Below are positions 2,227 through 55,938 of a stretch of 64,000 nt of DNA, one piece after another. Source of the DNA: Halorubrum ruber (GTDB taxonomy: Archaea > Halobacteriota > Halobacteria > Halobacteriales > Haloferacaceae). A program made the position numbers and the translations under genes. Under the pieces are notes generated by a model. That model was not told the origin of the DNA. It saw nothing but the letters and a program-made list of their open reading frames with translations, and searched no databases. The stretch's first letter is position 1, and every line of letters starts with the position of its first letter. The stretch covers positions 2,589,218 through 2,653,217 of the forward strand of contig NZ_CP073695.1 of NCBI RefSeq assembly GCF_018228765.1, read 5' to 3'.

Positions 2227-2702
2227 TTTATAAATAAACCTGCTGGGCGGTGGCGCGTGCCTGCGAGCGGCCGGAGCGAAGCTGAGGCCGCGAGGAGCAC
2301 GCGCGAGGGAGTCGGTGGTCCGGAGCGAAGCGGAGGACCACCGACGAGGCTGGGGAGGCGTGAGGTGCTGTCGCGGTGCGGGGTGGGACTCGAAGGGGCA
2401 GCCGCGAGGGCGGCGCAGACGACGGAAGCACCGCAGCGAGTGAGCGGAGCGAACGAGCGAGGAGCGCACCGAGTGTGCGCCGCCCTCGCAGCTGGGGCTT
2501 CGGTGGCGGTCGCGTTGATCGTCGATTTATAAGTAGCCACGTACAGCCGAGCGGCTGGGGCTCGGTGGCGGTCGCGTTGATCGTCGATTTATAAGTAGCC
2601 ACGTGCGGCCGAGCGGCTGGGGCTTCGGTGGCGGTCGCGTTGATCGTCGATTTATAAGTAGCCACGTACAGCCGAGCGGCTGGGGCTTCGGTGGCGGTCG
2701 TC
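2227..2702 (+). repeat. Structured dispersed element, copy 1, with 3-4 tandem tail modules
   Basis: Copy 1 of a five-member family fills the gap between mfnA and a halocyanin gene. It opens with TTTATAAATA (2227-2236), then GGCGCGTGCCTGCGAG, which pairs with CGAGGAGCACGCGC and is capped by CGGCC/GGCCG. A hairpin follows with arms GTCGGTGGTCC (2311-2321) and GGACCACCGAC (2335-2345). Then come the core GAGGCTGGGGAGGCGTGAGG, the motif GGGACTCGAAGGGGCAG and a long stem GCGAGGGCGGCGCA/TGCGCCGCCCTCGC. The tail, starting GCTGGGGCTTCGG at 2491, is repeated from 2554, 2616 and 2679 (period 62-63 bp), and the first three units each contain ATTTATAAG. No plausible protein is encoded. Confidence 0.85.
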
Positions 2703-21960: not shown

Positions 21961-22313
21961 GGCGGTGGCGCGTGCCTGCGAGGCCGCTCTGCGGCCGAGC
22001 AGCACGCGCGAGGGAGCGGTGAGCGACGGGCGACCGGAGGGAGCCCGGAGCGAACCGCGAGGCTGGGGAGGCGTGAGGTGCGGTCGCTGTGCGGTGCGGG
22101 GCGGGACTCAAAGGGGCAGTCGCGAGGACGAAGACGCGCGACGCAAGCACTGGAGGGAGCGAGCGTAGCGAGCGACCGAAGCGCGCAGCGAGCGCATCGA
22201 GTCCTCGCGACTGGGGCTTTGGCGGTGTTCGTGTCGGTAGCGTGCGTATATCACCGAGCGACTGGGGCGTTGGCGGTGTTCGCCGGGGCTCCCGTTTCGG
22301 TTACTTATAAATG
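21961..22313 (+). repeat. Structured dispersed element, copy 2
   Basis: Copy 2 lies between rpl37ae (-) and thi4 (+). GGCGCGTGCCTGCGAG pairs with GAGCAGCACGCGC around the tip GGCCGCtctGCGGCC. The second hairpin is weaker (GCGGT/ACCGC with GGGC/GCCC inside). Then come the core GAGGCTGGGGAGGCGTGAGG, GGGACTCAAAGGGGCAG and the long stem CAGTCGCGAGGAC/GTCCTCGCGACTG, followed by two tail modules starting at CTGGGGCTTTGG and CTGGGGCGTTGG. The end box is TTATAAAT at 22306-22313. The leading TATA-like box of the other copies is missing here. Confidence 0.82.
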
Positions 22314-23379: not shown

Positions 23380-23745
23380 TTTATAAATCGTCGACTTAGA
23401 TCAACGGCAAACTCCTCCAAAGCCCCAGCCGCTCGGCTATACTCGGTCAACTGTGGATCGACGGCGAACCCCTCCAAAGCCCCAGTCGCGAGGCCGCCGT
23501 ACGCTCGCTGCGCTCCTCACTCGGTCGCTCACTTCGTTCGCTCCCTCGTTCCGGTGCTTACGTCGCCTACGGCGGCCTCGCGACTGCCCCTTTGAGTCCC
23601 ACCCCCACCGCCCCGCACAGCAGCCTCACACCTCCCCAGCCTCGCCGCTCACGCCCTTCGGGCGTTCGCGGCGTCCCTCGCGCGTGCTGGCTCGCGGCCT
23701 ACCGGCCGCTCGCAGGCACGCGCCGACCGCGTATCGATTTATAAG
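23380..23745 (-). repeat. Structured dispersed element, copy 3 (minus strand)
   Basis: Copy 3 lies between thi4 and pyk on the minus strand. The leading box is CTTATAAAT (plus 23737-23745 region). The first tip is CGGCCggtaGGCCG. The second hairpin uses CGCCG/CGGCG with ACGCCC/GGGCGT inside (plus 23643-23673). The long stem is perfect over 19 bp: CAGTCGCGAGGCCGCCGTA at 23483-23501 pairs with TACGGCGGCCTCGCGACTG at 23568-23586. Two tail modules follow, and the element ends in TTTATAAAT (23380-23388). Confidence 0.85.
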
Positions 23746-36234: not shown

Positions 36235-38587
<2,353 letters not shown>

Positions 38588-38680
38588 TTCCGTAACGGGC
38601 GGGAGAGGGGCCGCGGGGGCCGACCCGCGCGCGGCGGTCGACGGGGAGGATTTTTGTCCGGTCGCGGTGTGGGTCGACAC

Positions 38681-39817
38681 GTGACGACGCTGGTCATCTG
38701 CGTCGACCGCTCGGGGGCGATCGGTCGCGCCACCAACGTCCCGATGCCGGTCGCCGGCTGGGAGGCCGTCCGGTCGCTGGTCACGGACGCCGGGTTAGAC
38801 GACCCCGAGGACGCCAGCGTGAACTGCCTGCTGGAGTCGCTGCGCGTCGCGCGCGACCTCAGGGACGAGCGCGAGGAGTCGGTCGTGGCGGTCGTCTCCG
38901 CCGAGAGCGACACCGCGGTGGGCGCCGACCGCTCTATCGCCTCCCAGCTCGACGACCTCGTGGAGCGGTACGACCCGCGGGCCGCCATCGTCGTCGTCGA
39001 CTCCGCCGAGGACGAGCGGGTCCTCCCGGTCGTCGAGTCGCGGATCCCGGTCGACTCGGTCGACCGCGTCGTCGTCCGCCAGGCCCGGGACATCGAGTCC
39101 ACCTACTACCTGCTCAAGCAGTTCCTCGCCGACGAGCAGCTGCGGTCGACGATACTCGTGCCGTTCGGCGTCGCGCTGCTGCTCGTCCCCGCGCTGTTCT
39201 ACTGGTTCTCCGCCGGCGAGGCGATCGCGGGCGTCGCCGGCCTGCTCGGCGCCGCGCTCCTTTATAAGGGACTCGCGATCGACCGGTTCGTGGCGGGGAT
39301 GCCCGAGCGGGTCCGCGAGGCGCTGTACGCCGGGCAGGTGTCCGTCGTGACGTACGTGGTGGCGGGCGGGCTCGCCTTGGTCGGCGGGTTCTTCGGCTTC
39401 CTCGCCGCCTCGGACCTTGGTCCCGGATCGCCCCGGCTCGTCGAGGTCGTGGAGTTCGCCTACGCGGCGGTTCCGTGGTTCGCGGTCGCGGGCGTGACCG
39501 CGGCCGTCGGACGGCTGCTCGACGAGCTGATCCGCGACGAGGGGATCCGGACGCCGTACCTCAACCTCCCGTTCGTCATCGCCGCGGTCGCCCTCGTCGT
39601 CCGCGGGTTCGCGGGCTACTTCCTCGCGCAGGAGGCGATCCACGAGCCGCTGTCGATGTACGGGATGACGTTGACCCCGGTCCAGCAGCTCGCGGCGTTC
39701 ATCGTCGGCGGCATCGTCGTGTCGCTCGTCGGCGTCAAGGTCGCCAGCGACGTCGGCACCGAGACCCTCGAAGACGTTATCGACGCCGAGCGGGACGCCG
39801 AGGGGCAGCGGGAGTAG
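38681..39817 (+). CDS. DUF373 family membrane protein
   Basis: GTG at 38681 ([15 protein letters not shown]) gives 378 residues; this N-terminus is the DUF373 signature, and the longer upstream frame runs into the TnpB element. A soluble Rossmann-like domain (1-145) is followed by six to seven helices. DUF373 proteins are widespread in archaea with no known function. It is the first gene after TnpB element 2. Confidence 0.85.
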
Positions 39818-40720: not shown

Positions 40721-41090
40721 TTATTTATAAACGGAACTGCGGCGGCGCGTGCCTGCGAGCGGCCGCCATCGGCGGCCGCGAGGAGCACGCGCGAGGGAGT
40801 CGGCGGTCCGGAGCGGAGCGGAGGACCGCCGACGAGGCTGGGGAGGTGTGAGGTGCTGTGCGGAGCGGTGCGGGGTGGGACTCAAAGGGGCAGCCGTGAG
40901 GCGGGCGCAGGCGAAGTAAGTACCGCAGGGAGCGAACGGGGTGAGCGACCGAGGAACGCAGCGAGCGTGCGCCCGCCTCACGGCTGGGGCTTTGGAGGTG
41001 TTCGCCGCCGATCTGCTGTCAGCTATTTATAAGCGAGCGACTGGAGCTTTGGAGCTATTCGCCGCCGATCTGCTATTAGCTATTTATAAG
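40721..41090 (+). repeat. Structured dispersed element, copy 4
   Basis: Copy 4 lies between aroE and the convergent CopD-like gene. The leading box is TTATTTATAAA (40721-40731), followed by GCGCGTGCCTGCGAG and the tip CGGCCGCCatcGGCGGCCG. The second hairpin has arms GTCGGCGGTCC (40799-40809) and GGACCGCCGAC (40823-40833). The long stem is perfect over 19 bp: CAGCCGTGAGGCGGGCGCA at 40891-40909 pairs with TGCGCCCGCCTCACGGCTG at 40968-40986. Two tail modules follow, each ending in CTATTTATAAGCG. Confidence 0.87.
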
Positions 41091-41137
41091 CGGCCGATGA
41101 CATCTTAAAAGAACCCGACTACCCGAACCAAGCCTCG

Positions 41138-55490: not shown

Positions 55491-55938
55491 TATTTATAAA
55501 TCGGTGTTAGCGGAGCGATGACAATTACCTCCGGAACTCCAACCGCTCATTTATAAATAACAGACGGTAGATCGACAGCGAACACCTCCAAAGCCCCAGC
55601 CGCGAAGGCGGACGCACGCTCGCTGCGCTCCTCACTCGGTCGCTCACTCCGTTCGCTCCCTCGTTGCGGTGCTTACGTCGCCTGCGCCCGCCTTCGCGGC
55701 TGCCCCTTTGAGTCCCGCCCCACCGGAAGACGTTCCTGCTCGCTTCGCTGCGCGGGCTGCGACTTCCGTGCTCCCGCTCGCTTCGCTCGCGGGAACGCAC
55801 AGCACCGCCCCGCGCCTCACGCCTCCCCAGCCTCGTCGGTCGCCGTCGCTTCGCTCGGCGACCGACTCCCTCGCGCGTGCTGCTCGGCCGCGAAGCGGCC
55901 TCGCAGGCACGCGCCACCGCAGTTGTTATTTATAAATA
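55491..55938 (-). repeat. Structured dispersed element, copy 5 (minus strand), with extra hairpins
   Basis: Copy 5 lies between two convergent genes on the minus strand. The leading box is TTTATAAATA (plus 55926-55938). The first tip is GGCCGCttcGCGGCC. The second hairpin has arms GTCGGTCGCC (plus 55835-55844) and GGCGACCGAC (55857-55866). The long stem CAGCCGCGAAGGCGG/CCGCCTTCGCGGCTG is perfect over 15 bp. An insertion of about 80 nt (plus 55728-55800), with its own palindrome CCCGCgagcgaagcgaGCGGG, splits the core. There are two tail modules, the second degenerate, each ending in TTTATAAAT. Confidence 0.85.

Follow-up and report, generated by a model that had tools for sequence, protein, structure and literature searches.

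Short palindromic repeats located in intergenic, non-coding DNA of bacteria, such as BOX, ERIC, Correia/NEMIS, RU-1/2/3 and REP/BIME, are modular, contain repeated sub-units and are present in tens to hundreds of copies. Structured non-coding ends are found in the IS200/IS605 elements and in the TnpB omega-RNAs, which are multi-copy in haloarchaea. Helix-embedded RNA G-quadruplexes (G4) are represented by the Spinach and Mango aptamers, both selected in the laboratory. The haloarchaeal cytoplasm contains multi-molar K+. Selection on cellular G4 is usually argued from sequence composition or antibody staining. More than 5800 potential G4 sequences are reported for Haloferax volcanii, and cellular staining has revealed G4 in both DNA and RNA (PMC12873603).

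The stretch of DNA analyzed here (the window) comprises 64,000 nucleotides from Halorubrum ruber and contains copies of what appears, from sequence comparison, to be a structured, multi-copy, non-coding element of the class Halobacteria. The five copies with a common layout that the earlier note had reported were recovered, with anchors at about 2346 (+), 22059 (+), 23624 (-), 40834 (+) and 55815 (-), and the anchor count in the window is exactly five. The copy studied in detail is the one anchored at 40834 (+). Three others are located at 22059-22234 (+), 23476-23643 (-) and 55590-55834 (-), and in the one at 2346-2515 (+) the AAAG/CTTT flanks are replaced by GAAG/CTTC, a compensated change. 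The G-only internal loop at the base of the long stem is probably one half of a G4 core within this element.

All features of the copy anchored at 40834 that are described below are on the + strand. A TATA-like box, TTTATAAA (40724-40731), assigned from the sequence and from the position statistics of TTWTAW, is located 5' of the element. It is followed by a Halorubrum-specific 5' domain (40745-40792), alike in other copies, in which GCGCGTGC (40745-40752) is paired with GCACGCGC (40785-40792) with hairpin 1 inside, and by hairpin 2 (40799-40833), which is variable in sequence and replaced between orthologous copies. The purine-rich conserved anchor GAGGCTGGGGAGGTGTGAGG (40834-40853) has 160 exact matches in the H. 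ruber genome. Further downstream, AAAGGGGCAG is found at 40884-40893 and CTGGGGCTTT at 40984-40993. The layout claimed for them in the earlier note is correct, and its coordinates are exact: AAAG (40884-40887) is paired with CTTT (40990-40993) in an outer helix and CAG is paired with CTG, leaving GGG at 40888-40890 (tract 3) opposite GGG at 40987-40989 (tract 4), as also seen in the copy alignment. The CAG strand opens the long stem-loop 3 (40891-40983), formed by a basal helix and then 2-bp steps split by short purine-rich internal loops, and its partner CTG lies at 40984-40986, both assigned from covariation. Two tandem 3' units of about 57 nt (40984-41097) start with CTGG(G/A)GCTTTGGAG, and each includes a CTGGGGCTTTGG strand and a TATTTATAA box; other copies are trailed by similar units, the number of which differs among many of them. 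Most copies have 2-bp steps that alternate with purine-rich mismatches (GA/AG, GGA/GGA) in hairpin 2 and in stem 3, as in GGAGCGAAGCGGAGG, and the same architecture was found in several hairpins of the element. A terminal helix between 5' GCGGTG and 3' CACCGC, plausible by eye, was discarded as unsupported (z 0.6). The window also contains an ORF at 37411-39102 (-), the C-terminal half of which resembles, by eye, an IS1341-type TnpB, and which adjoins no element copy.

The H. ruber genome (3.02 Mb) holds about 160 copies of the element, or approximately one in every 19 kb. The 10-mer AAAGGGGCAG has 167 matches there versus 7 for its reversed control and the 17-mer GGGACTCAAAGGGGCAG has 143 versus none, which excludes chance; the upstream anchor GAGGCTGGGGAGGYGTGAGG has 160 matches. 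To avoid circularity, copies were picked not by the loop but by the loop-free upstream anchor and sampled as stretches, 83 from H. ruber and 202 across the genus. The GGG/GGG loop was found in 83/83 and 200/202 of them, respectively. The neighbouring pairs of the same 202 copies do change: the outermost pair of the outer helix is A-T in 186 and, with an AT-to-GC replacement, G-C in 14, compensated changes further in turned CAG/CTG into CGG/CCG twice and G-C into C-G once, and every pair type is found in the stem above the loop. In a 40-copy alignment 96.5% of the cells are paired and 24 of the 33 pairs changed on both sides, versus a shuffled mean of 14.1, and this signal was lost once one strand was slid. 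The loop is fixed while the adjacent pairs covary, and there is strong support for the proposal that it is a functional site kept between helices that covary. Conservation merely through young copies or through homogenization by gene conversion might be expected in a multi-copy family whose hairpins are exchanged between copies; it is nevertheless extremely improbable, being contradicted by many compensated changes at adjacent positions of the same copies and across families. One locus (L340, genome G115) retains the full G core and lacks the internal loop CAAGCACCG / GAGCGCAGCGAG that is otherwise conserved in the long stem, so these two conserved parts are separable.

Two further invariant G tracts had been overlooked in the earlier note, tract 1 at 40873-40875 (G in 97-100% of the 202 Halorubrum copies) and tract 2 at 40877-40879 (98-100%), so that each of the six positions is G in 97-100%. 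They are joined by a free 1-nt linker at 40876, which is T in this copy and in 104 of the 202, C in 91, A in 4 and G in 3. The resulting GGG-N-GGG-ACTC lies directly 5' of the outer helix, and the sequence 5' of it is variable. The core strand, with its four G tracts, reads GGG-N-GGG-ACTC-AAAG-GGG-CAG-stem-CTG-GGG-CTTT; linker 1 can be any base and has 1-2 nt, and linker 2 (ACTC/ACTG) is conserved too. GGG-N-GGG was found at fixed spacing in 190 of the 202 copies, and six of the 12 misfits hold two runs of at least three G with a longer linker or a shifted register (L086, L205, L207, L214, L216, L186). These tracts could instead form a third helix, GGNGGG pairing with TTCNCC located 3' of CTTTGGAGGTG, which would leave the loop as an ordinary internal loop. 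Both segments are paired in the consensus folding, and their variable bases are associated (T with A, C with G) when all Halorubrum copies are considered (p = 5e-5). However, this composition-confounded association has p = 0.35 in the H. ruber genome and 0.015 in the remaining copies, variation is confined to the partner side, the Gs being invariant, and no register is outstanding outside Halorubrum; this pairing is considered improbable.

A covariance model built from 40 Halorubrum copies matched 99 of the 146 genomes taken from the order, in 41 of 56 genera. Of 38 genomes chosen outside Halorubrum, 37 contained the element, each with 1-70 matches at E <= 1e-5. The core outside Halorubrum reads GGG-N-GGG-ACTG-AAAG-GGG-C(CG)...(CG)G-GGG-CTTTC, and the Halorubrum-type 5' hairpin domain is often missing. 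A 19-mer of this core was found in 154 of 292 genomes, belonging to 52 of 77 genera, and its reversed control had no matches. Of 88 copies from the other genera, 79 have the GGG/GGG loop, and a shift of register accounts for some of those that do not; neither there nor in Halorubrum are its six G positions freely substituted. The alignment of these 88 copies revealed changes on both sides in 30 of 33 pairs (23.0 when shuffled) and a covariation score of 0.604, versus 0.162 for shuffled and 0.02-0.05 for slid controls; the fit of this alignment to the model structure works to the advantage of the score, but the slid controls are very far lower. Outside Halorubrum, elements often occur in head-to-head pairs with a spacer of about 16-45 nt (L321, L325, L331; G155, G233, G328).

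The length of the G tracts was found to be matched between the loop and the upstream segment. Copies with the 3x3 loop (A-type) have upstream tracts of 3+3 in 258 of 276 cases and of 2+2 in one. In a B-type subfamily with a 2x2 GG/GG loop, in the context AAAG-GG-CGAG / CGAG-GG-CTTT, the upstream segment is exactly GG-N-GG in 32 of 36 copies and 3+3 in one; the search with GGANTGAAAGGGCGAG by which these copies were obtained requires two Gs in the second tract, allows a third and leaves the first tract untouched. The B-type subfamily was found in 63 genomes of 31 genera, and two of these genomes hold more than 100 copies each. Four equal tracts on one strand, as expected of an intramolecular G4, are present in both types, as 3-3-3-3 (258/276) or 2-2-2-2 (32/36). 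Equal length on all four strands fits the demand of stacked G-tetrads, and neither a helix nor a simple protein site obviously demands such matching. Because the copies are related, they do not count as independent events, and the 2-G subfamily, with its 3-to-2 change, may have had a single origin, so that the Fisher p for tract matching refers to copies and not to events. Of 76 A-type copies outside Halorubrum, 13 retain an intact 3x3 loop while at least one of the upstream tracts is shortened or degraded, and joint loss of the loop and the upstream tracts was not significant (Fisher p = 0.12) in a first parse.

In the proposed G4 core, a stack of three tetrads would be formed by four strands, two from GGG-N-GGG and two from the internal loop, with the outer AAAG/CTTT helix below it and the CAG/CTG helix and long stem-loop above it, and the sister subfamily would form a two-tetrad version from GG-N-GG and its GG/GG loop. 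Tracts 3 and 4 would be antiparallel, held by a helix at either side. Tracts 1 and 2 are likely to be mutually parallel because they are joined by a single base, and the linker between tract 2 and the distal end of the outer helix has four bases, a shortness that would suit an orientation of both like that of tract 4. The outcome would be a 3+1 quadruplex between two helices, the tetrads of which would be stabilized by K+. A point against this arrangement is that antiparallel tracts 3 and 4, forced by the helices, make an unusual fold for an RNA quadruplex. The earlier note had offered metal, ligand or protein binding or G-rich stacking as functions of the loop. G stacking is favoured among them, though not of the loop alone, because the loop strands are conserved together with GGG-N-GGG and all four tracts change from 3 to 2 jointly. 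The G positions could also be direct contacts of a protein (or a metal or ligand) reading the G-rich grooves of the loop and of GGG-N-GGG, without tetrads. A dedicated binder would explain the invariance equally well, and the whole core is conserved, including the non-G ACTC/ACTG linker, as in a protein site; however, neither the variable linker base nor the joint 3-to-2 change on four strands is predicted by a protein site alone, and this alternative is regarded as unlikely.

Among the non-Watson-Crick pairs in the first ten pairs of the long stem, 60 are G-U and 16 are A-C, and a second count gave 90 and 23. This excess indicates that the folding strand is the one given here and not its complement, although single-stranded DNA would look much the same. 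A TTWTAW peak is located 15-18 nt 5' of the element start, with 69 matches in those four nucleotides among 141 Halorubrum copies, and no TATA-like hexamer was found in the 150 nt that precede the core in 85 copies of other genera; being confined to Halorubrum, the peak would make an own promoter at most a trait of this genus. The G-U excess and the Halorubrum peak are indirect signs of transcription, and the active form is probably an RNA of this strand. We lean, with some reserve, towards class-wide natural structured RNAs of haloarchaea with a helix-embedded G4, in which the tetrad number (3 or 2) would covary across the four strands.

Concerning the genomic placement, the commonest position of the element is between convergent genes (62 of 170 copies) and the rarest between divergent genes (21 of 170), as classified with a crude gene finder. 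When ORFs were judged by eye, the low-copy loci had no common neighbouring gene and no transposase or TnpB gene was a consistent neighbour of the element. Inspection by eye suggested strand domains on the chromosome, but these were not significant (p = 0.09). Near species largely share positions (20/20 for H. ruber versus G018 and 11/13 versus G017), and absences occur in G040 and other species. Orthologous copies are about 70% alike, compared with 55-61% for random pairs, despite flanking DNA that is mostly 85-97% identical, which argues for fast swapping or rebuilding of the hairpins with the core fixed. In orthologous copies at the aroE locus (L239, L240), short perfect palindromes with TTGCC/CTGTC-like spacers are inserted in a cassette-like manner. 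Near position 2567980 of the own-genome contig C1 (own-region position 67979, L265), the element and its surroundings are inverted in place with respect to G017 (L287), and the inversion is bounded by inverted GGGAGTGRGT arms. Such arms are likewise found around other copies at a constant distance (174 bp three times). A MITE would have terminal inverted repeats and a target-site duplication; some copies do lie between these inverted arms, and no clean empty site or target duplication was resolved. Similar sequence was found in three plasmid records only.

Some of these features would also be expected if what is conserved were a DNA hairpin, formed by a single strand of a transposable element and recognized by a transposase, with the G tracts acting in DNA: copy number ranges from none to more than 100 among related species, some Halorubrum copies lie in units with inverted arms, one of which was flipped between species, and DNA hairpins would tolerate G-T too. 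Against this, the Y1 transposase family (PF01797) is missing from the high-copy genomes G129, G054, G083, G290 and G016, the reverse-transcriptase family PF00078 is unmatched in 28 genomes, including high-copy ones, the exact core patterns have no match in 2.9 million viral contigs, and near species keep the positions of their copies. This DNA alternative is considered somewhat unlikely. The absences of Y1 and of the reverse transcriptase led to the rejection of mobilization by IS200/IS605 (PATE/REP type) and of a retron, a group II intron or another RNA mobilized by a reverse transcriptase. The favoured interpretation is a mobile or once-mobile element, the core of which would be held fixed by some recognition factor, and we infer that this factor may be needed for the element to persist. 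Candidate roles of the core are protein docking, stabilization of 3' ends or transcripts, or the spread of the element itself.

No Rfam 15 covariance model reached its gathering score on the element, either within the window or at 8 loci from other genera, and no description of it was found in the papers searched. The covarying helices that surround the tracts, the free linker and the joint shift of tract length from 3 to 2, all drawn from hundreds of natural copies, make the G4 core a specific structural claim that is directly testable. If true, it would be a G4 backed by phylogenetic covariation, in organisms with an exceptionally K+-rich cytoplasm.

Compared with the described systems, the element resembles BOX, ERIC, Correia/NEMIS, RU-1/2/3 and REP/BIME in being intergenic, multi-copy and modular, and differs from them in its deeper conservation, across many genera and families of one class, and in its fixed non-Watson-Crick G core, matched tracts and exchanged hairpins. 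Unlike IS200/IS605 elements and TnpB omega-RNAs, it has no consistent neighbouring transposase or TnpB gene, and several high-copy genomes are devoid of Y1. It shares with the G4 predicted in Haloferax volcanii a G4-prone sequence in a haloarchaeon; those were obtained by scanning linear sequence with G4Hunter (PMC12873603), whereas the fourth tract of the element follows a stem-loop of about 90 nt, which is ill-suited to short-loop scans. As in Spinach and Mango, a small G4 would be placed in an internal loop or junction beside helices, here deduced from comparative sequence, but the pattern of the element is natural. As a repeat, the element belongs to the known kind of intergenic modular palindromic elements, and its apparent novelty is the conserved G core with matched tract lengths.
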